DNA of 64,000 nt from Antedon mediterranea (GCF_964355755.1 NC_092671.1:38953304-39017303), one strand, 5' to 3'; shown: positions 11,117-36,500, counted from the first letter of the stretch. Program-made: numbers and translations. Notes: a model not told the origin generated them from the sequence alone.

Positions 11117-12107
11117 AGCAGGTTATATTTAACATGGCAGTGCATTATATACCTTAAACTCAACAGATAAACAGTTTGAGGCAGGTTATATTTTACATGG
11201 CAGTGCATTATATACCTTAAACTCAACAGATAAACAGTTTGCGGCAGGTTATATTTTACATGGCAGTGCATTATATACCTTAAACTCAACAGATAAACAG
11301 TTTGCGGCAGGTTATATTTTACATGGCAGTGCATTATATACCTTAAACTCAACAGATAAACAGTTTGCGGCAGGTTATATTTTACATGGCAGTGCATTAT
11401 ATACCTTAAACTCAACAGATAAACAGTTTGAGGCAGGTTATATTTTACATGGCAGTGCATTATATACCTTAAACTCAACAGATAAACAGTTTGAGGCAAG
11501 TTATATTTTACATGGCAGTGAATTATATACCTTAAACTCAACAGATAAACAGTTTGCGGCAGGTTATATTTTACATGGCAGTGCATTATATACCTTAAAC
11601 TCAACAGATAAACAGTTTGAGGCAAGTTATATTTTACATGGCAGTGAATTATATACCTTAAACTCAACAGATAAACAGTTTGCGGCAGGTTATATTTTAC
11701 ATGGCAGTGCATTATATACCTTAAACTCAACAGATAAACAGTTTGAGGCAGGCTATATTTTACATGGCAGTGCATTATATACCTTAAACTCAACAGATAA
11801 ACAGTTTGAGGCAGGTTATATTTTACATGGCAGTGCATTATATACCTTAAACTCAACAGATAAACAGTTTGAGGCAGGTTATATTTTACATGGCAGTGCA
11901 TTATATACCTTAAACTCAACAGATAAACAGTTTGAGGCAGGTTATATTTTACATGGCAGTGAATTATATACCTTAAACTCAACAGATAAACAGTTTGCGG
12001 CAGGTTATATTTTACATGGCAGTGAATTATATACCTTAAACTCAACAGATAAACAGTTTGAGGCAGGTTATATTTTACATGGCAGTGAATTATATACCTT
12101 AAACTCG
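11117..12107. repeat. 63-bp minisatellite, about 16 units
   Basis: Near-identical 63-bp units containing ATATACCTTAAACTCAACAG and ACATGGCAGTG repeat about 15.7 times. The few recurrent variants (GAGGCAG/GCGGCAG/GAGGCAA, GTGCATT/GTGAATT) are shuffled among units. Because 63 is a multiple of 3 and the minus frame lacks stops, the array appears as a 347-codon open frame, which is an artefact. It starts 180 bp after the ATXN7L3 stop codon, possibly inside the 3' UTR. Confidence 0.95.
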
Positions 12108-12407
12108 AAAGAAAGCAGTTTTTTAAACACTCTACATCAAGACAACTATTTCAATCGATTTCATAGTCACATTATGATTGTTTGATGATGTAATTTAAAT
12201 GTGAACAATGTAATGAATTCTATGTTGGAATGTTAACCAATGAATTAAAACATTTCAAGCAAATATATTTATGATATCATGTGTTGTGTATATGTTGGAT
12301 TTTAGTATCAATTATGTGATTTGAAGAGGTAAAAAAAGAACACAATTCAAAGTGTGTATGTTTTTACAATTTTTTTATTTCTACAATGTTTTACGAGGGT
12401 TGTACAT

Positions 12408-13235: not shown

Positions 13236-15939
13236 ATGTCTGTTTCGACAACCTCATCGCAAGATTCACAGAATGCAACGAATGCAGTACCACTACCAGC
13301 TGCACAACAAGAGACATGTGCCGAATGTATAGGCCTAGACGATGTTGTATCTAAAGAACGTCGACTATTTAGCAGCTCCGATCATAAACCGATTAGTTGT
13401 GTGGAACATCAAGAAAATATGATATCTAAAAGGTGTGAGAAAATGTACACTAAGTGGAAACGAAGCAGTCGACCCCTTGTATCTTCGAACGACCCGCTTT
13501 CAGAAATAAGTACAGATGGTAAGTTTACCATTGGACTCATTGGTAAAGAAGGTGGTCATCTTGAGATAAGAAATGGAGACATTCAGCTTTATATTCCGCC
13601 AGGATCATTGTCAGACGTTGACGAAGAATATGTATTTATGTATGCAGACTCAGTCCATCATAACTTGGTTAAATATGATGTTATCATTTGCGGCCCTCCT
13701 GGTCTGCAATTTAATAACTCAGTTTTGTTAAGATTCCCAAACCCAAAATCACAAGATGATGAAAGAAGCTTAGTGAAACTCAGTGTTCAGGAACTTGGCA
13801 AACCTTTGGAGTGGAGGTCGCTTGACACGACAACCGATGGTTATTTCTTTTTGGAAGATGGCAAAATAATGCTGCATATGAACCACTTTACCGGAATCAA
13901 AGTTAATGCTGTAGTACCCGCAATTCAGCAGACAGTGGAAGAAAAATGCAAAGCCGTCTACGTTACCGCGTTTTTAGAACAGCAAGACCAACACTACTTT
14001 TTGTTTCGAGTATTCTGCAGTACATATTGTGCTTTAAAGGTAAATAATACTTTATGCTATCTACAGGCCATCCAACTTCTGCATCCATAAAATAGTCCTC
14101 ATTTAGGCTAAAGTAATGTTTGAGGAAACAGACAACTCAATCTTTGCTCTATTTTCAAAATTTAAAGTTTAAATTTAATTAACAAATGTATAAATCTTAT
14201 AAAATTATTTCAGCTTGTGAATACAGAAGAATCCGAACGTGGATCTCGAAAAATGGGAAACCCAGTTAAAATGGGGTTGTTTCAACCACAAGACGAGGTC
14301 ACTTTACAAATGTTTGGTTGTGTGGGCTGCCTAGCGGAACCAACTCACTATGTAATTACACATTTTTGTTATATAACTATTAGATAGTCCTACTTTTCCT
14401 AAGTTTATGGAGATCGTGGTAGATTTGTGACTTTTTGTCCCTAAGTACCGCGTATATCAGTAGATAGATAGTCTATGGGTGATAGACCTACACATTTCAT
14501 TTATTTGTTTTTTCTGTACATTGAAAACTATAAAGACAACTGCAAAGATAACCAAACATTTTTATAATCATTTATGTTCTTTTTTAAGAGCATCTGTGTC
14601 GATGACGTCTTGTCTGATTTGGGATATATCCATCGCCAATTTGTGTTGGAAAGTTTAAGTACTACAGCTTGCCTTAAGTTCCAAGTTGATGTTGGTAGCA
14701 AGACTATTCATATTGAACGAGTTAAACTAGCTTTCACTAAGGCACATAACACACCCAGTAAAACGTTTTATAAGGTACGTTATGTATTTAATTACACTAT
14801 AAATATGCTTACTCGCCATATCTTAAATGTAAGACCTATTTTTATTTTATTGGTTTCGGAGATTTATTTCGATGATATTTCGATACGGTACATGCCTAAA
14901 TAATTATTATCGTTTTATATTTATTATATTCTTGTTTCGCTTTTAATTATCATAAAATTATACCAGTTATTATTCAATTTTTTTCTTCCTTTTTAAAAAT
15001 TTCATACGCATCCAACAGCGAGTAAATCGGCAATTAGGCCCTACAGGACGGATAAACTCATTTATCGTGCTTATAAACTTAGTCTCGTTTGAGTCTTATG
15101 GAGTTGAGTTTAAAGTGTCCGTTACAACCCTGGCACTAGGTCCGGACTGAATCCTGGGCCTTGGGATTGGAAGGCAAGCAAACTACCAAGCTAGCAGCTC
15201 AAATATTTAGGATATTGAATGAGCCTGGTGTGTGACTTGTAGCAATGGCACAGAGTAGGCCCTTATTATTATTCTTACCATTCAATAGTCGAGTGACTCA
15301 TGGTGTTATAAATTAGTTTATACCTCCACGAGTGGCCTACCACAACAACATACAACAATATACCTCCATGATACAAGCAAGTAAATGTTGTTGACTCTGA
15401 TACAAATAGCAATTAAACATTATATTTTAGTATTCGTACGTGTATTATGTTTACAATAGATTGAAGTACCTGATCACCGTATTTACCAGGAACCCGAATT
15501 TACATGTTCACCGCTGAAAACACACATTCTATCACCTGAAATGCGTAGGGAACTGTCAATGGAACTTGATGTTTTAACAATAGTTCAGAGAAAAGGAGAG
15601 CCTAAACCGAGGCCTTGTGACTATCGAGGCTTGGCAGAATTAATGGGAATGTCCGCAAGATATATAAATTGGCTTGAAGCTCCTAAAAATTGTCGAACAA
15701 GTAGTAGTCCGACAATTCTGCTGCTAAACACGTGGGAAATCGAGTGTAGCAAGAGGCAATTATTGGTACCGAATGCTTTAAAAGAGCTGGAAATACTGCT
15801 AATTAAACTTGGGAAAAACGCCTGTATTGAAATTGCCCAAAGGGGCAAAATTGCAAGAATGAGACAGTTCAAACATCGCCCTAGGGTCTATTCTGCACCA
15901 CCCAGTATGTGCGTGAACCCTTACAAAGATGTTCTTTAA
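13236..15939 (+). CDS. UNC5CL-like ZU5-UPA-death domain protein, copy 1
   Basis: Four exons: 13236-14039, 14214-14351, 14589-14774 and 15460-15939. All introns are phase 0, giving 535 aa (human UNC5CL is about 520). After a hydrophilic N-terminus of about 85 residues the ZU5 domain begins (GKEGGHLEIRNGDIQLYIPPGSL) and ends near HFT at residues 217-219. The UPA domain follows (FRVFCSTYCALK ... GNPVKMGLFQPQDEVTL). A death domain of the UNC5 type spans about residues 404-500 (CDYRGLAELMGMSARYINWL, SPTILLLNTWEI). No signal peptide or membrane segment is visible, unlike true netrin receptors and unlike human UNC5CL, which has an N-terminal anchor. In mammals UNC5CL signals through its death domain to IRAK kinases and NF-kB. 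A similar role here is inference. First gene of the array. Confidence 0.88.
15015..15215 (-). mobile_element. tRNA-derived SINE fragment, type 1, copy 1
   Basis: On the minus strand there is a tRNA-like head (TAGCTTGGTAGTTTGCTTGC, later GGATTCAGTCC, resembling A and B boxes). A body containing TTTATAAGCACG is shared with 55615-55760 and 61008-61110. It lies in intron 3 of copy 1. Confidence 0.55.
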
Positions 15940-17137
15940 AATTCTGTGACAATCCGAATGTCTAACCTCTGTAAGATTTCCTGTAGAGTTTTGTTTTGTA
16001 GATTCTCTATAGGCCTCTAGCAAATATAAAATTGTAGGCCATACAATCATTTTAGATTAGTACTATATTATCTATGAAATTCATAGAAATTGCCATACTT
16101 TAAAAAAAAATTCTTTAAACATTAAGCACTAACTGTTCCTTATATGCTAGGATACATTGATGTTTTGTATAAGTATAGGCATATCTCAATTGTGTTCAAA
16201 TACTTATCCTACTGTGAATTAATATTAATAATTGCTGATTTGTTTACAGATACAGATACAGATAACTTTTATTGTCCAAATAAACTGGAAATTGCATTTG
16301 CTCACTTATCACATTTTTTTTGATAAGTCAAAAAGATATCAACCGATTACTATGTCGAATATCTATGGTTGCATAGGTATTAATTAGACCTAATAATTGG
16401 GGAGTTTGTTGATTAGTAGGTTGTTATAATAATAAAATAGTTTGAACCACCAGGAACATTGGAATATAGGCCTACTTTGAATGTAGGCTAAATGTAATTT
16501 TGATTGAATCAACCGTTTTATAAAACATTTTCAATTCGACTTAACACGTAAAATATAAATTTAAAAAAAGAATGTACAGTGAATGTAAATATTGTACAAT
16601 ACTGTAGAGCTAGGATAGACCGATAATTAGTATCTTTAACTGGCGCACGTTTTGTAGCATAAAAAGACAATAAACATAATACGATATTTGACATTAAGTT
16701 TACGAAGATGTTTTACTTTCCCACTAATGTGCTTTACTCATTCGTAATATTACATAATTTGTGATCGTGTGATTTTATCTGCGACCGAACTAATAACTAA
16801 CTGAAGCGTGAACATGTTTTTGTGCTTTCAACCAAGGCAATCTAACCACAACAGGACAATGGAAGAACTCGTAACATTCCTTATTAGATATTTTTATGAT
16901 ATTCAGCATCCTGTTGTTAAATTGCTTGGAGTTGGAGTTATAAATAGTTAAATGCTACTAATAATCTTTAGTTAGTATTGTTTGTATAACAAATGGTGTT
17001 ATAGTAGGCATACGTTATTAAACTTTGCTCTCAGCGTCCAATCTTTCCCCCTTTCGATTGTTGCATTGATGTCTGTTGTAGTATTCTGCAGTACAAAAGG
17101 AAAGATCAGTAAACAGGAGAGAAAGGAGGTAAAGTGT

Positions 17138-17151
17138 GGGGGGGGGGGGGG
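17138..17151 (+). repeat. G14 homopolymer
   Basis: Fourteen consecutive G residues in otherwise AT-rich DNA. It could form a quadruplex and is prone to length change. Confidence 0.9.
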
Positions 17152-17409
17152 CCGCTTTGGAATCAGAATAGCAATGAATAGGAAGATATATTGATATAGT
17201 GTCCTTTGAGTACGAGTAGTGGTGAACACCACAAAAGAGAAAAAAAAAACAGGAGAAACTCGATGAGAGTAAAGTTTAATAACATGGGCCTACTGTAACA
17301 CCATTGTTATACCATAGAGGCAATAAGTGTTATTTCCTCCATGCTCATACTAATGGTTGAGTGAATCATAAGTAAACATTGATACAAATAATGCTATCTA
17401 TAGTAGCAT

Positions 17410-17640
17410 TAAACTATACAATTATTTATAGCACAATATTGTACTTTCCAAAAAGTAAAAAATCAACTAAAAATAATAAGTGGTCATTGCTGTTCAAATA
17501 AAGTAATACTTGTTCTTTTCACCTCGGTGGCTCTATTATGTTTGTCTTCATTGTTGTTAGTTCACAGAATTATTGTTGTTTTGGAAAGGAAACAGCATCA
17601 TATTCTGTGTTTTCTCAGTGAAGTTAAAATTAAGTTTCAA
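17410..17640 (+). promoter_or_regulatory. Conserved upstream module of copy 2
   Basis: Shares ordered blocks with 26745-27010 upstream of copy 4: TATACAATTATTTATAG, GTACTTTCCAAA, GGTTCTATTATG-like, TATTGTTGTTTTTGGAAAG-like, and CTGTGTTTTC followed by CAGTGAAGTTAAA. A shorter relic is seen before copy 3 (23155-23225) and a fragment before copy 1 (13114-13145). Likely the ancestral promoter/5' UTR of the array. Confidence 0.6.
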
Positions 17641-17683
17641 TATAACGACATTTACAGGGATTTAAACTCAGATCATAAGCAAT

Positions 17684-20600
17684 ATGTTTGTTTCGACAAC
17701 CGCGTCGCAAGTTTCCAAAAATACATTGAATGAAGAAGTAGCTGCACAACAGAAAACATGTACAGAAGAACGACTATTTAGTAGATATTGTGATGAAAAA
17801 CGACTCAAGTATGAGGGTATAAAGTATCAAGAGAATATGATAGCTAAAAATTGTGAGAAAATCTACACAAAATGGAAACGCATGTCTTCAAGCGGTAAAT
17901 CGTTTTCAGATTTAAGTAGAGATGGAAAGTTTACAATTGGATACATTGGTAAAGAAGGTGGTCATCTGAAGCTAAGAAATGGAGACATTCAGCTTTATAT
18001 TCCGCCAGGAGCAATGGCAGACGTCGCCGAAGGTTATGTATTTATGTATGCAGACTCAGTCCATTATAACTTGGTTAAATATGATGTTATCATTTGCGGC
18101 CCTCCTGGTCTGCAATTTAATAACTCAGTTTTACTAAGATTTCCAAACCCAAAATCACAAGATGATGCGTTGCCTGAAAGACCCTCAGTGAAACTCAGTG
18201 TCCAGGAACTTGGCAAACCTTTGGAATGGCGGTCTCTTGACACGACAACCGATGGTTCCTTCTTTTTGGAAGATGGTAACATATTGTTGCATTTGAACCA
18301 TTTCACTGGAATCAAAGTTGACGTAGGAGTACAAGCTGAGCAAATCCCAACAACGGCCCCAGATCAAGGAAACCTTATCTTCCTTTCTACTTTTTTGGAA
18401 CATGAAGATGGACGCTACTTTTCATTTAGAGTACACTGTAGTACCTATTCTGCTTTGGAGGTAAATATGGCGTAACAGCAAAACGATAATAACTATACAA
18501 AACAGTATTATAGCATATAATATAACAATTGCATAAACAGTAACTTTCTATTAATCTACAATGTTGTTATTTTCAGGATGTGAACAAAGATGAATTAGGT
18601 TCAAAACAAATTGGGAAGCCAGTTAAAATGGGTTCTTTTCGAAAACAAGATGAAATTACCATTACAATCATGAATTGTGTAGACTGTAAAGTGGAACCAT
18701 CTGACTATGTAATTATACATTTGTATACTTATTAAAAGATTATGTTTTTGGACATGAACTTCCACTTTGATTAGCATTTTATTCATTATATGGGTACATT
18801 CACAACGTTGGTTAATATTAATATAGGTCTTTCCCGCCGATCATTGTGTTTGGAATTTCATTATAATACTGCATAGGACTACTCCAAAATTGTTTGCACT
18901 AAAATCTTTCCAATATAGAATCTCTCATCTCTATATTTTTTATTTTATCCATGGTATACATTTCCTATTTATTTTAGCAACAATTAGTAGTATAACATAG
19001 TATTCAGTTGAATAAATCTGACTTAATATTTTATTTTGTGTTAAGAAACATGAGCTATGATTTTTTTTTCGTAATATAGGTTTCGTTTATAATGGTTTCT
19101 TCTCTATTTGTTATGGGTGTGGTTACGTTTTTGTCTGTTTCTTGGAACTTAAACTAAATAAAATAATTAACCGTACTCTATTAAATTTTAAGAGCATCTG
19201 TGTCAGTGAGGTCGTGTCAGATGTTGATAATCATATCCACCGTCAATTTGTGCTGGAATGTTCAAGTAACTTAGCTTTCCTGAAGTTTCAAGTTAATGTT
19301 GGTGGCAAGACTGTTCATATGGCACGAGTGAAAGTTGAACCTGATAAAGCACCAACGGCTGTTAACAAGTTGTACTTACAGGTCAGTTTGAAGTAGATTG
19401 TGTCCGTGATCTACATCGTCTTGCCAATGTTTATATACGAACCATCAACCTATTTTAACAATTACCGTATATGGCCTACATTGGACAGATTATCACCTTG
19501 TTCTCTGATAGTTTATTTGCTCTTATCGACGTATTCGCAGTTCATAATTATGCATTTATTAACTAAAAGAGAACATTTATTAAAATAATCCTTTTTCAAT
19601 TTTCAAACTTGCAAAGAACAAGTCATTACATCGGGGAAAAACGTTAGACAATGACTAAACATAAAAGAATTGTGTTTCATAAAATGATTTTTAAATTCTC
19701 AAATTTTTTAAAAATGAGTAGTAATTAATGATCATGTATAAGGAAATTAAATATTTTATAACGATGTTTGGAAACAAAAGGTTATTTAGACCAAACGTCT
19801 TTGTATTAGCTTTGTAAACTTCTTTTGTAAGTGTATTATAGAAAAATATAAGAAGATTAATGAAAAAAGGAGGTAATACGGAATACAAAGTGAATTTACA
19901 AGATTAAAAAAAAGTTAATGATGAAGTTTATCAAATTGTAATGACATTTGAAATTAACATTATTATTTTATGTTTTTGCCGAAATGAATAAAAAAAATTT
20001 AAAATAAAATAAAATAACAAAAATAAATAATAAATAATATTATTTTATGTGATTACATGTAAGATGATATTAATGTGAATAAAAGTGGTGTTTAGGCCAA
20101 ATAAGAGAGAGAAAAAAAGTAGTAATAAATATATATATATTTATATAAGAAAATAATAAATATTTGAGTTACAATTTTGATTGTATTCGTAATACCGTTG
20201 TATCCAAATCATCATACTAAAATACAAAACTGAAAGCAAATTCGGTAAGAATTAAATATTTTGATTGTTTAATATCTTTAGGATGAAGTCGAAGAATTTC
20301 ACGATGAGTATCAAGAATCAGAATTCACACCTTCACCCCTGAGTCGACCAATTCTAACAACAAAGATGCGTCGGGAACTGTCAATGCAACTTGACATGCC
20401 GAGAATAGTACAGTGGAAAGGAGAATCTAATGCCAGGTATTGTGACTATCGAGGCCTTGCAGAGTTGATGGGAATGTCAAAAGAATTCATAGACTGGATT
20501 AGAGCTCCAAAAAATTGTCTAAAAAGTAGTAGTCCGACAATTCTGTTGCTAAACAAGTGGGAAATCGAGTGTAGCAAGAGGCAATTGGTGACATCTGATG

Positions 20601-20770
20601 CTTTGAATGAACTAAAACAATATCTTATTAAACTTGGACAACATTTCTGTATTGAGATAATAGAAGGTAACATTCCAGGAAATAAGTATAACTTTCGGCC
20701 ATCGAAAAGACGCAAGGAGATTGTTGCTGATAATAATCCACCCCAACGTCGGTGGTCGGCAGTGCTGTAG
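17684..20770 (+). CDS. UNC5CL-like ZU5-UPA-death domain protein, copy 2
   Basis: Exons 17684-18460, 18577-18708, 19193-19381 and 20282-20770, phase 0 throughout, 528 aa. ZU5 starts at GKEGGHLKLRNGDIQLYIPP. HFT is at residues 206-208. UPA includes FRVHCSTYSALE and GKPVKMGSFRKQDEITI. The death domain includes CDYRGLAELMGMSKEFIDWI and SPTILLLNKWEIEC. The N-terminus (MFVSTTASQVSKN) aligns with copies 1 and 4, which supports this start. It ends in a short basic tail (KRRKEI ... QRRWSAVL). Its exon 1 is almost identical to that of copy 3, so the two are the youngest pair or have been homogenised. No defect is visible. Expected to be a cytosolic death-domain adaptor. Confidence 0.88.
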
Positions 20771-20890
20771 GTCCACTGGAATGGTGATTTGCTCAAATTT
20801 AAACATATTTAAATAGGCAGCTAAAAAACGTTTTTGCTCCAAACAGGGTATGCCATACAAGTCAAGACAGTCTAACAACATTGCCTTACA

Positions 20891-20896
20891 AATAAA
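20891..20896 (+). terminator. Polyadenylation signal AATAAA after copy 2
   Basis: A canonical hexamer 121 bp downstream of the copy 2 stop codon. Plausible, though the hexamer is common in AT-rich DNA. Confidence 0.45.
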
Positions 20897-21324
20897 AGTT
20901 TATCTATGAACTGAATTTGTTTAATAAAGTAGCAATTAAAACAAAATTAACTCACAGTCAAATGTAGTAATCATGTTTACTTATTAAATAAAATATTGTA
21001 TAATAAATGATTTAATACCACAATGAGTACAGTAGTATCTAGCTTTTTATTGACTAGGTAAGACAATATTAGTATAAGTTACCGTTCTTTTATTATTAGT
21101 TTTATGACAATTTTCTATTCTAACTGTGTCAATAAAACACTGCAGTATTAATCACAATTGTACGTCATTCAGATCTATACGTCTATTGGCAACATTCAGG
21201 ATTTTACATCATGTGATTTATTTTACTTCATTTATTGGATCTAAATATTCACATGGTTTTGCACACGTGAATTGATTTAATGCCACGTTCTTGAAGTGTA
21301 TTATGAAATTGTTGATTGCCATTG

Positions 21325-21396
21325 CATGCGCCTTGAGCACTCTTGAGTGGTATGTGCGCTATAAAAATCCTGTAATATTATTGTTATTATTATTGC
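21325..21396 (+). mobile_element. Retroelement 3' tail with (ATT)n, copy 1
   Basis: GCGCCTTGAGCACTCTTGAG followed by GTATGTGCGCTATAAAAATC and an ATT microsatellite. The same unit occurs inverted at 28856-28925 and 34732-34790, typical of a LINE/SINE 3' end. Confidence 0.6.
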
Positions 21397-21959
21397 ATTA
21401 CCATTGTAATTGTATTATGCCTATTGCTGCATGTGGAGCTAAGGGCTAAATATTTACCACCAAACTTAATTCTAAAATACCCTATACTTTACTCATGTTA
21501 CCGGTAGGCCTAGTATATTTTTAACCTTGACTGATTTATTTAATAAACTATCCTTAATACTCTTAATTCTTATTTCTATCAATTATACTATTGTTAATAA
21601 CTGTGTAGATTTCGTATTTATTTGGCACTACATTTTCTGTAAATAATTATATTAGTAATAATTACTGTCTAGATCTCGGCGGAATTCTTTACGATTGAAC
21701 AAGAGGATCGAATCGAAAATCGAAGAATGTACTCAGAATATATATGTCTGGAACATTTTGTCATTATTGTATGAAATCTAATTTACTAACAATTTAATTA
21801 AATTTCAGTTGAACCATTTATTGGTTCCTTACTGTGAGTTTGTACGGTTATTTTGATAGGTCTCTCAGATGCAGCTTGTATAAATTATAATGACGTAGGT
21901 GAAACACTTAATATACACCGTATTAAAGGAAATGGTGTGATTGTTAAAATACGACCACA

Positions 21960-22503
21960 CACATCCTCAGTTTTCAAATAGTGGACAACCACATTTATTT
22001 AAGACAATGCCTAAATAGAAAGTTTGGAAAATGTTCTACTACGACTAAATGTTATCTATTTAAGAGTTACTGTGTCAGCATGTACTGTTCAACATTATGG
22101 GGTAGGTATAATAAGAGCACTCTGAGATCACTGATAGTATTTTATAACAATGCATTACGTTTGTTGCTGAAGCAGCCTAGAAAGTGTAGTGCAAGCATGA
22201 TGTTTGTCTTAAATGACGTCCCATCCTTTGATGAATTCATTAGAAAATCTGTTTTTAGTTTTAATAATCGTGTGAACGCGCGCAAGTGGTAATTCCTTGA
22301 TCATGGCCATCAATCGCCACTTTCTTAATGTGTCAAGAATGCACATACAATGGATTGCCTTGTTGCATTGACTTTATATATTTATATATTTTTGTTTTTT
22401 GCTATGAGCTCTTAGATTAAGATTTGTTTTTCTTTCTTTTGCTATGGATATGTTATGTCACCGTGATATTCCGAAATAAAAAAAGATGAATGAATGAATG
22501 AAT
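21960..22503 (+). mobile_element. Non-LTR retrotransposon 3' end
   Basis: Encodes about 100 codons of a LINE reverse-transcriptase C-terminal domain (CLNRKFGKCSTTTK, LFKSYC, YCSTLWGRY, YNNALRLLLKQPR, FVLNDVPSF). It is followed by an untranslated region and a GAATGAATGAATG tail. 5'-truncated. Confidence 0.8.
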
Positions 22504-23295
22504 GCCAAGCGATGTCCAAGTAAAATTAAAATATTGATTTTCTGTTTATTTGATTTACTCTATTCTTTCGGCAAGGATTACTTGATATACAGGTCTTTTT
22601 TTTTTTTAAATATAATATTTGTATCCCGTTACTATTAACCACTTGAAGTATTCACCTTATAATACTCAATAAGATAATGGTTTTTCTCATGGTGCAGCTT
22701 CAAATGTCTCAAGATTTAGGAATATAACTAAACATGCAAGTAATGTATTTTGATTCATTTTTATTGAATCAACCATTAGGCCTATATACCTTATTAGCCT
22801 ATAGTTACAAACATGAGTGTACAACGAAAAAAAAGTACAGTGAATTTAAATGTAGAAAAGGTTCAATTTCAATTCAATTCATCGACATTTTTATTCCATA
22901 ATCAAAATAAAAACTCATGTATTTTAATCAATCATTGGACCTAAACCATTCTTATTATTCTTGATGGCCTACGTGAGCACTGGGGAAAGGAACGAACAAT
23001 AGGAATGAAGAAAGTTGGTAGTATAAAGTCCAATCACATGATGGGCGGTATACAGTACCATTGTTATGATAATATTCGGTACGTAGTTTGAATAAATATT
23101 TGGGTTATTGTTGGGTATTGGGTTTACACATAATGCTATTTATACTAAATATGTATTTTCCCAAGGCAAAATATGAACTAATAATAAGTGGTATAAATGC
23201 TGTTTGTGTCAAAACATGCAGAGATACAACACATCAAACTGTATGTTTCCGATTCAACATCGCAGGTTTCTAATGATTTGAATTTCAAATTACCG

Positions 23296-23298
23296 TAG
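23296..23298 (+). pseudogene. In-frame stop in the ancestral 5' coding end of copy 3
   Basis: Sequence from about 23240 resembles the first codons of copy 2 (VSDSTSQVSND versus VSTTASQVSKN). The reading frame that joins the gene meets TAG here, 24 bp before the ATG at 23320. Confidence 0.65.
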
Positions 23299-23319
23299 CA
23301 GCATAGTTATCAACACAAT

Positions 23320-25872
23320 ATGGAAACACATGGGGTATCAAAAGAACGAAGGTTTATAAGAAACTCGAATAGATATGTTAAGTGCAACAATGCAGAATAT
23401 CAAGAAAATATCATTTCCAATAGATGTGAGAAAATGTACAAAAAGTGGAGACCCAAAATGAGAAATCGGCTGCTTGACCAATCGTTTTCGGAGATTAGTA
23501 GAGATGGAAAGTTTACAATTGGATTTATTGGCAAAGAAGGTGGTCACCTGAAGCTAAGAAATGGAGACATTCAGCTTTATATTCCGCCAGGAGCAATGCC
23601 AGACGTCGCCGAAGGTTATGTATTTATATATGCAGACTCAGTCCATCATAACTTGGTTAAATATGATGTTATTATTTGTGGTCCTCCTGGTCTAAAATTT
23701 AATAACTCAGTTTTACTAAGATTTCCAAACCCAAAATCACAGGATGATGCGTTGCCTGAAAGACGCTCAGTGAAACTCAGTGTCCAGGAACTTGGCAAAC
23801 CTTTGGAGTGGAGGTCTCTTGATACCACAACCGATGGTTCCTTCTTTTTGGAAGATGGTAACATATTGTTGCATTTGAACCATTTCACTGGAATCAAAGT
23901 TGACGTAGGAGTACAAGCTGAGCAAATTCCAACAACGGCCCCAGATCAAGGAAACCTTATCTTTCTTTCTGCTTTTTTGGAACATGAAGAAGAACGCTAC
24001 TTTTCATTTAGAGTACACTGTAGTACCTACTATGCTTTGGAGGTAAATATAGCGTACAGCAAGACAATCCTATCAGTTTACTAGGCATATAATAAGCAAA
24101 CAGTGTAATGTAAAAAGTTTTAAAAAATGCAAGTTTAAATTGTGCCTTTGTTATTTTCAGGATGTGAACAAAGATGAATTAGGTTCAAAACAAATTGGGA
24201 AGCCAGTTAAAATGGGTTCTTTTCGAAAACAAGACGAAATTACAATTACAATCATGAATTGTTTAGACTGTAAAGTGGAACCACCTGACTATGTAATTAT
24301 TATTACTGTTGGACTTTTTGACATATTTTTTTTTAGCAGGATAAACTCTTAATGCTAAAGTGAAATCTAGGCCAATAAATTCTCCCTTTAATTTATTATG
24401 TAGGTCTACTTTCAACATCAGTTGAAACAATTGCTGTATGCATTCAGAGCGTTGGGTTTTATCAATTATAGATTCATTTTCAATTCATCGTGAAATTGGG
24501 AATACTAGCAACCCTACCGCTTTAATACTTCAAACCCTACCGTATCCTATGAACATTTAATCTCGTGTGTCTGTATTTCATTTTATCCATGAGCATACAA
24601 ACTTCTATAATTCTAACAGAGTTAAAAACAATTGTTTTTGATCAATGGATTAAACTTATTATTTTATAGCGAGGATTTTCAATATAGTTTAACATTTTCT
24701 TCTCTATCTGTGTGTATGGTTGAGGTCTGTTTTGTTTCATGGGACTCAGAAATAAATAAGAAAACCCATGTCTTTAAATACCGTATGTCTTTACACTTTA
24801 AGAGCATCTGTGTCAGTGACGTCGTGTCTTTTAATGATCATATCCACCGTCAATTTGTGCTGGAATGTTCAAGTAAAAGTAACTTAGCTTTTCTGAAGTT
24901 TCAAGTTAATGTTGGTGACAAGGCTGTTCATATGGCACGAGTCAAAGTTGAATCTAATAAAGCACAGACTGCTGTAAATAACAGACTGTACTTAAAGGTC
25001 AGTTTGAAATATCAACCTGTTTAGTTTGCTTTTAAACTTATTTTAGGTCCATAATTATGCCATTTTAATAATAATTAATACATAATACAACATGTAGGCC
25101 TACTGGTAATGCGCGCTACATAAATATAATAGTCCTTTTTAAAGAAAAAATCTACATAATGTCAAGCGTAAAGTGTTTCACCATGGAAGTATAAACCTCC
25201 ATTGGTTTCATAAAGTTTTAAAAACTACACGATCTTAGATAACAACGATCAATGTTTATTGTAGTCTTATCATCCTGATTTCATCTATATCATACACAAT
25301 CACAAACTGAATGTAAATTAAATATAAGAATCAAATTTTATTCAATTTGTGCTTAATATACTTAGGATAAAATAGACGAATGTCACGAAGAGTATCAAGA
25401 AGCTGAATTCACACGTTCACCTCTGAGTCGACCAATTCTAACAACAAAAATGCGTCGGGAACTTTCGATGCAACTTGACATGCCGAGAATAGTACAGTGG
25501 AAAGGAGAATCTAATGCCAGATGTTGTGACTATCGAGGCCTTGCAGAGTTGATGGGAATGTCAACAAAATTCATAGACTGGATTGGAGCTCCAAAGAATT
25601 GTCAAAAAAGTAGTAGTCCAACAATTCTGCTGCTAAACAATTGGGAAATCAAGTGTAGGAAGAAGCAAATGGTGAAATCTGATGCTTTGGAAGAATTAAA
25701 AAAATATCTTATTCAACTTGGACACAGTGCCTGCATTGAGATAACAAGTCATATTGTGGAAAAGAAAACGTACATGCCATCAGTGAAGATGCGTGAGAAG
25801 ATTAGTCCTGAGAAGAGAGACAAACGTCGTTGGACATATTCAGCACCATCTTCAGTGAAGCTTTTGCTGTAG
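23320..25872 (+). CDS. UNC5CL-like ZU5-UPA-death domain protein, copy 3
   Basis: Exons 23320-24042, 24161-24292, 24803-24997 and 25366-25872, phase 0, 518 aa. The start METHGVSKERRF is the first in-frame ATG after a TAG at 23296, so the protein lacks the 20-45 N-terminal residues of copies 1 and 2. ZU5, the HFT at residues 188-190, UPA and the death domain (CDYRGLAELMGMSTKFIDWI, SPTILLLNNWEI) are intact. It carries the basic C-terminal tail ending RRWTYSAPSSVKLLL. Closest to copy 2. Probably functional, since the lost part lies outside the domains. Confidence 0.85.
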
Positions 25873-26125
25873 GCCTACTACTACTGGAAAGTTGAGTTGT
25901 GGTAAGGCTTAATGTAAAACAAAAACATTACTAGACTATATGCAAATTTTGCTCCAGAAATAATATCTTGTCCATGGGAGCTAAAACCGATGATAGCAAA
26001 CATTAATGATTTTACCGTACACAGGCGAAAGTTTTTCCAGTTGTGACTACAATCGAACATGGATATTATTCTTGTAATTGTATTTTACCTCTTTATTTTT
26101 TATGTATATATATTTGTTTATAAAT

Positions 26126-26190
26126 CCAAATGCGAATTACAGAAAAAATGCTGTGGGTATCAGTGGTTGGAGTCTCAATTAAGATAAAAC
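26126..26190 (-). mobile_element. Dispersed repeat R, truncated copy
   Basis: Inverted tail part only: the AAATCCAAATGCGAATTAC end followed by the GTGGGTATCAGTGG block. No ribozyme-like core. Confidence 0.6.
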
Positions 26191-26293
26191 AATTATAAGC
26201 AACTACTAATTGATTGAAATGATTGGACTACTTTCACAAGGCCGATCAGGCCTCGTTAAACAAAATATAAATATATGCCTAGTAGCTTTTATT

Positions 26294-26443
26294 AAGCTCT
26301 TTCTAATGTAAATTATCAAACTTTATGTGACAAAAAACGTGATTTGGCCATATATGGACATGATGATGTCACATCACTCACTCATATTTAGTCACATCAC
26401 ACTTTTTTGTCAAACTAGTTTGATAGTGCATGGTGTAGAGCTT
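26294..26443 (+). repeat. MITE family A, copy 6
   Basis: Both ends recognisable, with the left terminus mutated. It lies in the spacer upstream of copy 4. Confidence 0.75.
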
Positions 26444-26744
26444 TAAGTTAGGTATTTGTCTCTAATAGTATTATCATGGTGTTTCTGTGATCATTACAAT
26501 TAGTTATCTTGTCGGAAAATATAAATAAATGTATTTTACCTAAAATATATACATGACTTGGTGTTCAGTCAGATTACAGCCTGAAGATCATAGTCAATAT
26601 TGACTATGCTGGCTAATCAGCTAATCATGGCTTTTTTAGTATACATTATGACTAATTTTTGACCGGACCATATTTTTGCGGCCAAAACAGTCCTACTGCC
26701 CGGACCGATTTTATCCATTTTGTTGACATTGTCATTGTGTACCA

Positions 26745-27010
26745 TTGGACTATACAATTATTTATAGCTCCATAAATGTACTTTCCAAACAGTCAAAAGT
26801 CACTAAAAATAGTCCTCTATAATATTTTTCACTAAATAAGGTAATATCAAGTTATTTTGGTGGTTCTATTATGTGAATGGTCTTCATGAATTCAAAAGAA
26901 GTATTGTTGTTTTTGGAAAGAGAATCATACAACCGTGGAAAACGTCATAAGCTACTGTAGCATCAGAAAAGCTAAGTCATACGCTGTGTTTTCCCAGTGA
27001 AGTTAAACAT
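26745..27010 (+). promoter_or_regulatory. Conserved upstream module of copy 4
   Basis: Counterpart of 17410-17640 with the same block order, interrupted by short insertions. Its retention before a damaged gene fits recent decay. Confidence 0.55.
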
Positions 27011-27233
27011 AAGCTGCAACAGTACAGTTTCGTTCCTCCAACTGATGCCAGTCGCATCCAAGAGGCAGTCTTCTCTAGCATCCAAATATATGCTGGGTCC
27101 GACTGTTAAAGGGCTTCCTTGACTGGGTTAGCTTCTTTGCTTGACTAGGATCGCACTGAAGGAGATTGCTTAGATTGCAATATATAGTTCACTTCAAAGA
27201 TTCAGACAACTCGAATCGTAAGCACTATTTAAG

Positions 27234-29548
27234 ATGTCTGTTTCGGCAAGTTCACAGGTTTCCAGCAATACCACCTCGAACTCGAACGGAGAAGTAGGCC
27301 CAGCTGCACAGCAGGAGACATGTGACGAAGAACGACTATTTAGCAGATATTGTGATGAATAACAATTTAATTGTGAAGGTGTAGAGTATCAAGAAAATAT
27401 GATATCTAAACGTTGTGAGGAAATCTACATGAAATGGAAACGGGGCAGCCGGCCATGTGTGTCTTTAAGCGAACAATCATTTTCAGATTTAAGGGGAGAT
27501 GGAAAGTTTACAATTGGACTTATTGGTAAAGAAGGTGGTCATCTAGAACTGAGAAATGGAGACATTCAACTTTATATTCCTCCAGGAGCAATGCCAGACG
27601 TCGCCGAAGGTTATGTATTTATGTATGCAGACTCAGTCCATCATAACTTGGTTAAATATGATGTTATCATTTGCGGCCCTCCTGGTCTGCAATCTAATAA
27701 CTCAGTTTTGTTAAGATTCCCAAATCCAAAATCACAAGATGATGAAAGCAGCTCAGTAAAACTCAGTGTTCAGAAACTTGGCAAACCGTTGGAATGGAGG
27801 TCTCTAGACACCCCAAACGATGGTTTCTTCTTTAAAGACGATGGTAACATAATGTTGCATTTGAATCATTTCACCGGAATCAAAGTAGGAATACAAGCTA
27901 ACGCTCTACAGGCTAAGGCTATTCAGGCAGAGACCGCCGATAAAAGAAAAACTATCTTTGTTTCTACTTTTTTGGAACAGCAAACCCAACGTTACTTTTC
28001 GCTGAGGGTATACTGCAGTACACATTCTGCTTTAAAGGTAAATAAACCATATAATATAGAAAGATAATATAATATAAATCGATTTATATTATAGATTGGT
28101 AGAATTCTGAAGTATAACGGGAAGAAGGATGCTGGATCCGTACTAACAACAGGCCCTTTCTATTTCTCCATTATATTTTAGGATTTGAGCAAAATTGAAA
28201 TCAGATCTAAACAAATTGAGAATCCCGTTAAAATTGGTTCATTTCGAACACAAGAAGACGAGGTTACTTTAAGAATCAAAGATTGTGAAGGTTGTCAAGC
28301 GGACCCATCTGATTATGTAATAATATACATTTAGGCCTATTGTTATTGTTTTTGATTGTAAATTCCTATTGTGTACAATGTATTAACTGTCACACTTTAA
28401 ATGTAGAATTCTAATTCAAGTAAGATATAGGCCCACCTCTTCACGATAACAAGTCGTGTTTTGTGAGAAAAGCAATGAATACATAATGTTTTAAAAATAT
28501 TGTATTTTAAAAGTTTCTGTGTCGGTGACGTCGTGGCAGATGTTGAACATATTCACCGCCAATTTGTTTTGGAACTTTCAAATAACGTCGAGGCATTTCT
28601 GAAGTGTCAAATTAATGTTAGTGACAAGAATGTTCATATGGCAGGGGTGAAAGTTACAAAGAAGTTGCAATTATTCTCAGAGGTCAGTATAATACTAATA
28701 GTATGACTGATTTCTACTACCCAATCTAGTATCTCCGTATATCCGTAATCCATAAATTCCTAGTAATTATAACAGGGTCACCTATACAATTAATATTAAA
28801 CAGGATTATTACCAGCCGCTTTAAGAATGTTCGATTTGCGGTTCATCGACTATTTATTATAATAATAATAATAATAAGATTTTTATAGCGCACATACCAC
28901 TCCAGAGTGCTCAAGGCGCATTAAAAAAATAATATGTTTTTGAAAAATGTATAATACACTATACAACATGTTAAACAATAACATTGTATTGCAAATTAAA
29001 TAAGAATTTTAAATGAATTTAACAATTTTGTATATTTATAGAATGAAGATGAATTGTATGATGAGTCTCAAGAACTCAAAGAATTCACACGTTCACCCCT
29101 GAGCCGACCAATTCTAACTATAGAAATGCGTCGGGAACTTTCAATTCTACTTGACGTGCTGACAGTAGTACAGTGGAAAGGAGAATCTAAACCCAGATGT
29201 TGTGACTATCGAGGCCTTGCAGAGTTGATGGGAATGTCAGCAAAATTCATTGAATGGATTGGAGCTCCAAAAAATTGTCAAAAAAGTAGTAGTCCGACAA
29301 TTCTGCTGCTAGACGATTGGGAAATTAAGTGTAGAAAGGAGCAATCTGATGCTTTGAAAGAACTGAAACAATATCTTATTAAACTTGGACACAATGCCTG
29401 TATTAAGATGATAACAAGTCATATTGCAAAAAAGAACACAAACATTTCATCAGTGAAGAGACGTGATAAGAAGATGAGTCTTGATAATAAGAAAGGCCAA
29501 CGGCGTTGGACATATGCAGCACCCCCTTCAGTGAAACATTTGCTGTAG
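27234..29548 (+). pseudogene. UNC5CL-like copy 4, probably inactivated
   Basis: Nominal exons: 27234-28037, 28182-28316, 28512-28682 and 29042-29548. The start MSVSASSQVSSN aligns with copies 1 and 2, but codon 43 is TAA (27360-27362) where copy 2 has AAA. The first downstream ATG is at 27399. At intron 2 the acceptor AAG|AGC of copies 1-3 reads AAA AGT. The nearest AG (28512-28513) would shift the frame and meet TGA within five codons. The ZU5 (HFT at 212-214 from the first ATG), UPA and death-domain reading frames are otherwise open. Either a recent pseudogene or a gene making a ZU5-UPA fragment from the internal ATG. Confidence 0.8.
28856..28925 (-). mobile_element. Retroelement 3' tail with (ATT)n, copy 2
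   Basis: Inverted relative to 21325-21396: an AAT microsatellite, then TTTTTATAGCGCACATACCA and GAGTGCTCAAGGCGC. It lies in intron 3 of copy 4. Confidence 0.6.
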
Positions 29549-29734: not shown

Positions 29735-29882
29735 AAGCTCTGTCTACACTATCAAACTAGTTTAAAGAACAAAAAAAACCTGATTGCCTAAATATGGTAG
29801 TCATGTGCTCAAAATATGGTAGTGATATGACATCGTCATGTCCATATATGAGCACGTCACATTTTTTTGTCACATAAAGTTA
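29735..29882 (-). repeat. MITE family A, copy 7
   Basis: Reverse orientation with the left terminus intact; the last arm stops at CACATAAAGTT. Confidence 0.75.
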
Positions 29883-29983
29883 GGATATCGCACGCGCGTA
29901 AAGGAGTTTGAGTCCGATGACTAAAATCGAATACAGAGTAGTGAATATCCGTGAATAAGTGCATTTTGTAGGATTTTCCTAGA

Positions 29984-30862: not shown

Positions 30863-31032
30863 AAGCTCCGCCTACACTATCAAACTTTATGTGACAAAAA
30901 AAAATGTGATGTGGCCATTTTATGGACACGATGATGTCATAATCACTACCATATTTGGGCATATAATCACTACCATATTTGGGCATATCACACATTTTTT
31001 GTCAAACTAGTTTGATAGTGTAGACAGAGCTT
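30863..31032 (+). repeat. MITE family A, copy 8
   Basis: Full length, with both termini and a doubled ACCATATTTGGGCATAT centre. TA lies on the left and TTAA on the right. Confidence 0.85.
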
Positions 31033-31798: not shown

Positions 31799-33539
31799 AT
31801 GGCAGAGGCAGTAAGGCCCCGACGAAAAACTAAAAAAAAGGTATTTTTGCTAAAAATTAGTCTTTATGTTAGATATGGTGAATTAGCTATTTTCTTATTT
31901 ATTGTTTGTTATTTTAAGAAATAAGCATAAGCAACAAAATAAGCATCATCGGTGTATCTAGGCCTAGGCCTACTTTCCGAAGGATGAGAGGTCAGCTGAC
32001 TGTTCCGTGGTGATCGGCTGCTGCTTTTGGGATTTTCCCTCAACATATTGTGTAACACCACTGATGACAGCCTAGACCTAGAGCCTAGGTCACATGCATT
32101 GATTAATATATATTTGTATTGCTGGGTGTACGACTAGCCTAGCCTAAGCCGCCTAAGCTAGTTGATATCTTGTATAAGGTGTGAAATCAATGAATTATAA
32201 TTAATAAATAATTGACATTTCATATGGCCTAGCTAGGCTAGCTATAGATAGGCCTATCTAGTAGGACTATTAAGGGTATATATTTTGTGGAATGTGTCTT
32301 TGAGGAAATGCAGCCTTCCCTTGGCCTTCTGTACATGCCCAGATTTTGGTGTGCTATAGCCTAAAATCCGGATTTAAAATGGTTAATGATGATAGCGGTT
32401 GTTGAAATATTTTCAGTGTGTTCACATTTTATTTTGGACCGATTTCAATGCAACTGATTTCAGGGTGATTTGTCTTGTCACCCTAAAGCACTTACTGAAT
32501 GCGTGTCCTTTGGTTTGGACATGCTCAGTAGGACCAATGCATAATTGCTATCCAATCTACTTGTTTGTATACAAAAAATAATAAATTAATTCTTATATTT
32601 TTAATAATATATAATGTATGTTGCGATAAAATTCTGAATATTATTATAATTGATCTAGTGAAAATTGTTGGAAGAAACAAAGTGTTTAAATTCTCTTTTG
32701 CCTTCTTTTTTTAGAAAAAAGAAGTTGTTAAAGATGTCGAGGAGGAAGATAAACAAGAGAATCTTTCAGAAGAAGCTGACAACTTAGAAGAATTACAAGA
32801 AGGGACTAGCCAAACACCTGAGGGGGTTACACAATCAAATGAAGGAACTAGCCAAATACCTGAAGGAGCTACACATTCAAATAAAGATATCGGTAAAGAG
32901 GAACTAGATCATAAAAGAGATAAAGAGATTGCGGAGAATGAAAACGAAATGATTGAACCAGACAAATTGAAAGAAAATGTTGCTATCCCATCAGAAACAT
33001 TAAAAGTAGATAGCGTAGAAAATGTACCTGAAACAACTGCCACAGCTCCTCCTGTATCAATAGAGACTGATCTTGTAGTACTGGATGAGCTGGTGCCCTC
33101 TGCTCCACCAGTTAGCTTTGAGAAAGAGGTTACCCCAGAGACTGATAATAATACTGTACTGAGTACTACTAATTGTTTAGACATTAGAAATAGTGAGGAT
33201 GTTGAACATCCAGTAGAAGTCATCAGAGAACCTTCAGTTGAAATCTCACATCCAGTTGAAGAGATCTTGGATCCTTTACCAGAAGTTACAGATCCAGTTG
33301 TAATGGATCCTCCTGCAACAGTCTCAAATCCTACAGTTGAAAGTGTTAGAACATCCGAGCAGATTAGAGTTATTGCGCAAGAAAGGAATGACGAAGTGAG
33401 GGCATCCAGCCGGTTGTATCCTGCTCTGGTGAGGCAACGGAGCCTAACCATGATGCCATTCACTGATGACGAACTAACAAAGTATTATTTTAACCCCATG
33501 CTGCAGCATCACGATGTCTATGTTGACAGTTTTGTTAAG
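31799..33539 (+). CDS. EPG5: EPG5 exons 1-2 (residues 1-289)
   Basis: Exon 1 is 31799-31840, a 14-codon basic start. Exon 2 is 32715-33539, 275 codons, acidic and low in complexity with Pro/Thr/Glu-rich repeats such as [14 protein letters not shown]. It ends in the more conserved [24 protein letters not shown]. The poorly conserved acidic part corresponds to the disordered N-terminus of human EPG5. Confidence 0.88.
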
Positions 33540-36500
33540 GTAAAGATTTTTTGTTTGTCATGTCTGTGAATAACCATTCATTTACTGTATAAGTGTTTTA
33601 AATAGTAAAGCGTGGTTCCCACTAGCGACGCAACGCAAGGACGTAACGCAACGCAAGTGAATTTACCAATCACAAGCGATGGCTTATTCGGTTTTGATTG
33701 CCAACTGTCTATAACTTCGCTTGTCATTGGTTAAAACGCTTGCGTTGCGTTTACGTCCTTGCGTTACGTTCTAGTGGGAACCAAGCTTAAGGCTGTAAGT
33801 CCTGGTGGTCCCAAAACAAAAAGAACTAGAAAGCCACTCCGAGAGTGCATACCTCCACCTACTGTAAAATTCTATTTCTCCCGTAAAAAAAAATATATAT
33901 ATATATTTGTGTGTGTCTTAATGCTGTTTGTGATTTTTTAATAATATTAATAATAATAATTTCACTGCAAGCATGTGCATGCGAGTTTGGTATAATGGTT
34001 ATGTAACAAGCCTTTCCATTAACAATAGCTTCAGTTGACTAACATTAACAATAGAACAGCAACGTGAAAATCAAACGATTGAATTTGAAAAGAAAATAGG
34101 TTTTTTAAACTACTGGCATCAAAATACGTGCACATTAAATCAAATTATGTTTTAAAATTACAAATCACAAATTATAACTCTTGCCTCTTGTACAAAAATG
34201 AAGTTTTTTGGACAAGTAGTTCTCGAGAAAATGCAATTTCAGTATACTTGTTACTTTAAGACTGCTCGCCGGCTTTTGAAAAATTCTGTCCTATCTTTTA
34301 ACACTAGCAGGTCTGAAAAGTATACTAAAAAGTGGTCCAGAATTGGGACAATGGTCCCAAAATTAAATGGAATGGTCCTTGACCACATATCTATCTGTAT
34401 ATTCATTTTGGTAAAGATCTTGTAATTACTTTTTGAGTAATCCTGCTAACAAACCAACAAACGAACACGCGCTACCGATTACACATACCTCCTTGACGGA
34501 GGTAAATAATTGCTGAATTTACTACAAATTTATTTGTGAAAGTTTCAATTTTGACGCTGCCCTAATCAATATCACCTATTGTGTTTATTATACTATCTAC
34601 CTTAAAAGCAATACATATTGAAAATATATAAAAAAACAAATAAATAAACAAAAATTGCTAAATGAAAACAGCCATAAGAGAAGTGATAAACTGTGGAAAA
34701 CACCATTTATTGAAATTCTTTAAATTTGTAATTAATAATAATAATAACAGGATTTTTATAGCGCACATACCACTCAAGAGTGCTCAATTGTACATTTTGT
34801 AATAATTTCTTTTATGTCAATGTATTGTATGTTGTCATGTTCTTTGTTTTTGCTTAAAGAGATTAATAATGACAATTTTATTGAAATCATATGACCATGT
34901 AAGGATCTTGCAGTACCAGCATTTTCAACAATTATATAGGAATTCAAAGGTTAAATTTCCTTTCACACTGACAAAATACAAAGTTCAAACAATTTTAATC
35001 TTCTGATTGTTTTCACAAAGATGTAAATAAACCCTACATAAACATTTAGCTTTACACTATATACATGCATAATAATAAATTTGGACTTTTAAGCGCATAA
35101 TCCCAATAGCCTCCATATGCTTCACATAACAATAAAAGTAATGCATGAAATAAGTAAAATAAAAAAGAGCAATTAAAAATGAGGGTGACAGGCCATAAAA
35201 TAAATAGATCACAACTGAATTTATATGGTTAAATCGAGGGTGAAAATATTTGTTGAAAAGATGAGTGTTTAAAACACTTAAATACATAAAGGCAATAACC
35301 ATTGTTTTTAACATATATAAACACTATTTAAAGCCCATATGGTTACTATTTGATAGTGATATTGTGAAATATTGGTAAATTATTACAAAACAAGTTTATT
35401 TTAGACAGTGACACATTTTTGTTTTAGACTTTTAGATCCTTGTTGTATTTTATTGTTTATTTTACAATTACTGTACAGCACACAGGAATTTGTATACATC
35501 TGATAATGATTACAGTAGTATTTAAAGTAATATAAATATTATTATTAAATATGATTATTATTGTCCTCAATAGCAAACTAATTTATTAAAGGGTCTTTCA
35601 CACCTTCTCCGGTACGGTTCCGGTCCGGCGACGGCAAATCCAATCAAACGTCAATGTTTTGTTTTTATGCGGCTACGCGCATATCAATTGGTGCTTGGCC
35701 GCGTGGAGCGTTGTGAAAACGAAACATTGGCGTTCGATTCGCCGGACCGGAACCGTGCCGGAACAGGTGTGAAAGGCCCTTTAGTCATATAACTCATCAT
35801 ACTGTCAAATTATAGAAGCAGTGCTCATATTCCGAACATGATCTTATATAATCGCATAGCTCATTGGCGAAAGACCGTAGTCATGAACTATATGAATTGT
35901 TATTAAACTTGTTGTTAAATTATAGAAACAGTGCTCATATTCCGAACATGATCTTATAATCGCATAGCTCATTGGCGAAAGACCGTAGTCATGAACTATA
36001 TGAATTGTTATTAAACTTCTTGTCTTCCATAGCAAACTAACGTATCTAGTCATGAACTATATGAATTGTTATTAAACTTCTTGTCTTTCATAGCAAACTA
36101 ACGTATCTAGTCATGAACTATATGAATTGTTGTTAAACTTCTTCAAATCAAGAACAAACCTTCTTGCTGTTGTTGCGGATATTGAAAGTGTCAGAAAGGA
36201 CTACAAGAAGTTTGTTGCTGAAATGTGGATAACGGAAGAAAAACACATTACTGCACAGGTAAATTATCTATAAATAAAAGACAAGGTAATACCTTTCAAT
36301 ATTAACATCGGCAAGGGTGCGAGCCTCACTCGCTCCATGGTTCTGGTGGTAGAACGAGAACGATAAACCATAGGTCCAGTGTACAAATCTAGCTCGTGTG
36401 CACTTTAAAGAACCTAGTATAGTACATCTTTCGAGATGAGTAGGGGGTTACCTCAGTGTACTAGTATACACACAGCCACTTTCACACACAGACACTTAAC

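Follow-up and report, generated by a model that had tools for sequence, protein, structure and literature searches.

A tandem array of soluble ZU5-death domain genes with a conserved candidate self-cleavage site in Antedon mediterranea

Four head-to-tail genes, each modelled from the sequence with four phase-0 exons, occupy positions 13236-29548 on the plus strand of a 64,000-nucleotide stretch of the Antedon mediterranea genome (C2:38953304-39017303; here, the window). The reading that we favor, with confidence that is evenly balanced, is that they belong to a soluble intracellular ZU5-UPA-death domain family, expanded in tandem and subject to birth-and-death evolution, whose members act as latent, possibly self-cleaving adaptors. 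The exon borders of the four genes were fixed by reading frame, GT..AG signals, and copy-to-copy comparison, and the genome searched comprised 354 Mb in 18 contigs. The gene models were as follows:

Exons 13236-14039, 14214-14351, 14589-14774, and 15460-15939, plus strand: gene 1, 535 aa; open phase-0 exons with GT..AG borders
Exons 17684-18460, 18577-18708, 19193-19381, and 20282-20770, plus strand: gene 2, 528 aa; open frame with GT..AG borders
Exons 23320-24042, 24161-24292, 24803-24997, and 25366-25872, plus strand: gene 3, 518 aa, with a short divergent N-terminus; open frame
Exon-like blocks 27234-28037, 28182-28316, 28512-28682, and 29042-29548, plus strand: gene 4, degraded
15460-15939 (gene 1), 20282-20770, 25366-25872, and 29042-29548, plus strand: death domain exons, from profile matches

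The outer coordinates of these models, 13236 and 29548, coincide with those of the initial annotation, which had proposed a four-gene tandem array with a common plan of four phase-0 exons. That plan was seen in all four genes, and an identical one was found in two paralogues at C6:6.768-6.779 Mb. All sixteen exon blocks have lengths divisible by three, the copies agree in their splice sites, and the start ATGs have in-frame stops just upstream. The genes are spaced 1.4-2.5 kb apart, and the copies are joined in register by direct repeats of up to 300 nt with 60-97% identity. The second intron (donors at 14352, 18709, 24293, and 28317) continues the open frame past its donor in each of the four genes until a stop codon is reached in frame; its retention would yield a protein with ZU5 and half of UPA, lacking the death domain.

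Gene 4 is a pseudogene, the one broken copy of the array, and the decaying member that the initial annotation had noted owes its state to two lesions:

27360-27362, plus strand: in-frame TAA in exon 1 of gene 4, at codon 43 of the aligned frame
28509-28511, plus strand: exon-3 acceptor site of gene 4, reading AAA and not AAG or TAG, from copy comparison

The acceptor reads AAG in genes 1-3 and TAG in the C6 paralogues, and its AG is lost in gene 4. Splicing at the next AG (28512-28513) places exon 3 out of frame, with a stop within five codons (...DYFLCR-stop).

The domain content was assessed by profile search and by structure prediction. ZU5 was matched in all four genes at 30.4-34.4 bits against a Pfam cut-off of 21 (E values of 2.7e-8, 5e-7, and 1.4e-7 for genes 1, 2, and 3). 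The Death profile was also matched in all four, below its curated Pfam cut-off (17.9-21.0 versus 22.6 bits; E values from 4e-4 to 3e-3, with 1.3e-3, 3.8e-4, and 3.4e-3 for genes 1, 2, and 3), and a Pfam search of the four proteins returned no match to UPA. The ZU5-UPA-death order is therefore not established by profile search alone. An AlphaFold model of gene 2 (residues 45-497) was built from a 28-row alignment drawn from the same genome, with single-exon C6 rows; an earlier model from 7 rows was poor (pLDDT, 41) and was set aside. The model predicts a ZU5 domain (pLDDT of about 80-89), a beta-rich UPA region with eight predicted strands (pLDDT of about 30-58), and a six-helix death domain (pLDDT of 88-96 for the most part, falling to 57-75 around the middle helices). 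In a Foldseek search of the PDB, its best match was the ZU5-UPA-DD of UNC5b (3g5b; E value, 2.2e-13), followed by the ZU5-ZU5-UPA-DD of ankyrin-B (4d8o; E value, 7.7e-11). Both alignments ran the whole length, with the death domain aligned through the end of the UNC5b chain. The global TM-score was low and the rmsd was high; the simplest reason is that the placement of the domains relative to one another was not predicted.

For the UPA region alone, the VIA rows were Ig-like folds (Z of about 6-7), and a profile alignment between the array family and the genome's UNC5CL-type protein covered ZU5 and the first half of UPA (E value, 5e-9). Sequence searches of the PDB gave no significant UNC5B match, whether the query was gene 2, the family profile, or the death domain profile alone. 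Collectively, the folds of ZU5 and of a divergent death domain are predicted for the array proteins, and the middle beta domain is likely UPA, on a structure of modest confidence. Of the order given in the initial annotation, the ZU5 part was upheld by Pfam and the death domain part by the sub-threshold Pfam matches and the predicted six-helix fold; the UPA region was covered by the whole-length Foldseek alignments to UNC5b and ankyrin-B but gave no Pfam match.

By hydropathy, the array proteins are predicted to be soluble, with no transmembrane segment. The maximum Kyte-Doolittle value over a 19-residue window was 0.9-1.1, versus 3.5 for the transmembrane segment of a gene on C3. None of the 55 other plus-strand ORFs at 7-30.5 kb of the window contained Ig, TSP, or LRR domains, in agreement with the earlier description of the genes as devoid of Ig, thrombospondin, and membrane parts. 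Pfam matches to ORFs at 11.0-12.2 kb were rejected as spurious, as they derive from a 63-bp tandem repeat; tandem arrays at 11118-12121 (63 bp), 56559-58043 (24 bp), and 62311-63656 (48-67 bp) produce long spurious ORFs. Downstream of the array, a multi-exon gene at 32715-42400 on the plus strand resembles EPG5; it gave no Pfam or PDB match. A recurring short MITE-like element with inverted ends (AAGCTCTGTCTACACTATCAAACT...) lies mostly in the introns of this downstream gene:

Window 29737-29900, 30865-31030, 37520-37940, 39250-39400, 41125-41260, and 41725-41850: copies of the MITE-like element

These results bear on how the array relates to known ZU5-UPA-death domain proteins. The genes might be true UNC5 netrin receptors whose upstream Ig, thrombospondin, and transmembrane exons were missed; UNC5 receptors have a cytoplasmic ZU5-UPA-DD like that predicted for the array proteins, UNC5b is the top fold match and closest structural match (3g5b), and the death domain motif of the array, SPT..LL..WE, is of the UNC5 type. 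However, UNC5 receptors have an ectodomain and a membrane span and the array genes have neither, the intergenic gaps of 1.4-2.5 kb hold no receptor-domain ORF, and in-frame stops directly precede the start ATGs. Moreover, a distinct UNC5-type locus, with ZU5 and UPA in separate exons, lies at C6:19.22-19.24 Mb, and the ZU5 tree described below sets the array genes apart, which makes this explanation extremely improbable.

UNC5CL (ZUD) resembles the array in its ZU5-UPA-death order, as far as the probable UPA of the array allows, and in its lack of Ig or thrombospondin modules, and the array could on this basis consist of local duplicates of UNC5CL itself, orthologues that have lost the membrane anchor. 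This is quite unlikely, as the genome has another candidate. At C3:36.96 Mb, a single-exon frame of 606 aa with a strong transmembrane segment has much stronger matches than the array genes to ZU5 (2.5e-23), UPA (4.7e-8), Death (4.7e-6), and UNC5B (1.7e-29); it appears membrane-anchored and, from its sequence, appears to be the natural UNC5CL counterpart of this genome. UNC5CL is reportedly N-terminally membrane-anchored and autoproteolysed, so that the absence of a membrane part separates the array genes from it. In addition, the C3 gene is one open frame, whereas the array genes are split into four exons and encode proteins predicted to be soluble. The tree also leaves them outside the UNC5CL-type row; it groups the window clade with an array on C1 and not with the C3 gene, although its deep branches are long and weak. 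The close tie to UNC5CL drawn in the initial annotation did not hold, given an anchored UNC5CL-type gene on C3 with which the array genes do not group; the likeness is partly supported as one of layout, with orthology not recovered in a one-genome tree of weak deep support.

The other relatives differ in equally plain ways. PIDD1 shares ZU5, a death domain, and probably UPA, and its HF/S site after ZU5 resembles the candidate site of the array. PIDD also contains LRRs and a second ZU5, as in the PIDD-like gene at C2:9.99 Mb (LRR and double ZU5), whereas a single ZU5 without LRRs is present in each array gene. The FIIND proteins NLRP1 and CARD8 share ZU5 and probably UPA, a conserved [SH]F-nucleophile, putative in the array, at the same junction, and then a death-fold domain; they carry a CARD and Ser where the array genes carry a death domain and Thr. 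Ankyrins share the predicted ZU5-UPA-DD fold (4d8o), but the array genes have no ankyrin repeats and a single ZU5.

Across the genome, 66 ZU5 matches were found, many of them in local arrays, along with at least 150 death domain matches. The death domain exon of the array had exactly six matches, the four in the window and two on C6. In a ZU5 domain tree of 37 rows from this one genome, the four window genes and the two C6 genes formed one clade (support, 99/99), in which genes 2 and 3 were closest (98/97), and the sister of the six-gene clade was the array at C1:13.0 Mb (96/96). The UNC5 and UNC5CL-type rows fell outside these two groups, with deep branches that were long and weakly supported; the position of the window clade outside the UNC5 rows agrees with the separation from UNC5 receptors. 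Spanning one genome, the tree gives neither the age of the family nor its reach beyond this animal. A relic at C3:13.491-13.494 Mb (L071) keeps only the start of the window-family exon 1, followed by sequence that by eye is transposase-like. Expansion of the family by tandem duplication (four genes here, two on C6, and one relic) with continuing birth-and-death turnover is supported, because there are six death domain sites genome-wide and one dead exon-1 relic. The six-gene clade, the degraded gene 4, and the C3 relic are thus in line with the local expansion envisaged at the outset.

The C1 array (L064-L068, C1:12.997-13.053 Mb) is a second tandem ZU5 array, with four rows placed as the sister group of the window family in the ZU5 tree. 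Its downstream exons encode a helical-looking domain with no Pfam name, Pfam Death gave no matches in it, and its tails carry the tyrosine motifs YQNV and YMTI, one with a QHQ-rich repeat. A separate ZU5-death group on C10 (L057-L059) has stronger death domains (SPT.ELLN.WE) about 2 kb downstream of its ZU5 exons.

Divergence among the window genes is uneven along the protein. By its substitution rates, the ZU5 domain of the array is under purifying selection (dN/dS, 0.13-0.26). For UPA and the death domain, dN/dS was about 0.27-0.65, with a value of 0.98 between the death domains of gene 2 and the degraded gene 4, and for the C-terminal tail it was near 1 in several gene pairs. The N-terminal and C-terminal parts diverge most among the copies, as expected from the different N-termini first described. 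A conserved core with ends that are free to vary is compatible with adaptors that differ in partner choice or with simple relaxation. Gene conversion of ZU5 is not claimed: lower fourfold-site divergence in the ZU5 part hinted at it (2/27 versus 24/64 between genes 1 and 2; Fisher P value, 0.0044, uncorrected), but only one of six pairs was clear.

The ZU5/UPA junction reads NHFTGIK without variation in the six paralogues (NHFTGIKF in c6B), and this conservation marks a candidate autoproteolysis site in each window gene:

13884-13892, plus strand: HFT codons of gene 1
18299-18307, plus strand: HFT codons of gene 2
23881-23889, plus strand: HFT codons of gene 3
27867-27875, plus strand: HFT codons of gene 4

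In PIDD, each ZU5 domain is followed by an HF/S self-cleavage site, and NLRP1 and CARD8 are cut at SF/S between ZU5 and UPA; the autoproteolysis is a nucleophilic attack by the residue after Phe, and Ser, Thr, and Cys can generally start acyl shifts (PMC3210808). Ser, Thr, or Cys was found at the nucleophile position in 50 of 52 readable ZU5 domains of the genome, a count that leaves out L086 (degenerate site) and loci with no readable site and that, like those that follow, is inflated by kinship; [HS]F[STC] was present in 31 of 33 ZU5 rows of a first set and in 19 of 19 rows of a further set. Because related loci inflate the counts and Ser, Thr, and Cys are similar in size, the motif suggests, and does not prove, that putative cleavage is retained at the ZU5 junctions. 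A large dispersed ZU5 family (L026-L049, L075-L077, and L085; mainly C4:13.4-26.8 Mb) has HFS or HFC at the candidate site, and several of its loci read HFSWYALK.

Both the UNC5CL-type protein of this genome and the PIDD-like gene, in its second ZU5, also carry HFT. This presence fits a different explanation, namely, that the motif is structural and that the array proteins are non-cleaving scaffolds or decoys, which would buffer other death domain proteins or act on them as dominant-negative partners. The ZU5-UPA-DD of ankyrin and UNC5 serves as a closed scaffold with no known autocleavage. The explanation is possible, though on the unlikely side: Ser, Thr, and Cys interchange across many ZU5 loci and other small residues are nearly absent, which favors a nucleophile at the candidate site.

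If the array proteins are instead latent adaptors, ZU5 and UPA would form the latent module, possibly self-cleaving at HF/T. Displacement or degradation of the variable N-terminal part and ZU5 would then allow the UPA-death domain fragment to assemble and to recruit death domain partners, leading to inflammatory or cell death signaling. The model for such release is provided by NLRP1 and CARD8, with UPA-CARD, and by PIDD, with UPA-DD; in NLRP1 and CARD8, degradation of the N-terminal part frees UPA-CARD, which then assembles (PMC7794386). Cleavage, partner recruitment, and an immune role of the array proteins are inferred. Counting against a self-cleaving adaptor, the candidate nucleophile in this family is Thr and not Ser, Pfam gave no UPA match and the UPA pLDDT is low, and HFT could be kept for structural reasons.

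As to immunity, human UNC5CL reportedly activates NF-kB and JNK via IRAK1/4 and TRAF6, without MyD88 (cited in PMC7570868). UNC5C-like transcripts are down at the infection focus in clam (PMC4769524) and more abundant in mucosal agranulocytes of oyster (PMC13070813); both annotations concern different genes, from other phyla, and the immune evidence is thin. A wider proposal, which we regard as unlikely, is that the self-cleaving ZU5 module of this genome has become a large, repeatedly duplicated sensor/adaptor superfamily in which Ser, Thr, and Cys have replaced one another as the nucleophile, with the array as a soluble ZU5|UPA-DD branch that would release a death domain fragment as in NLRP1 and CARD8.

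In marine invertebrates, echinoderms among them, death-fold and TRADD-N proteins are known to have undergone lineage-specific expansions, and some of these proteins are fused to ZU5/FIIND with predicted autoproteolysis (PMC8195603). What is new here is thus the six-gene family itself and not its setting. The array offers a compact, testable case: its ZU5 parts and its candidate self-cleavage site are conserved, its ends vary, and this soluble family coexists with an anchored UNC5CL-type gene, UNC5, and PIDD in the same animal. If HF/T cleavage does occur, the release principle of NLRP1 and PIDD would be wider than assumed and would accept Thr, and perhaps Cys.
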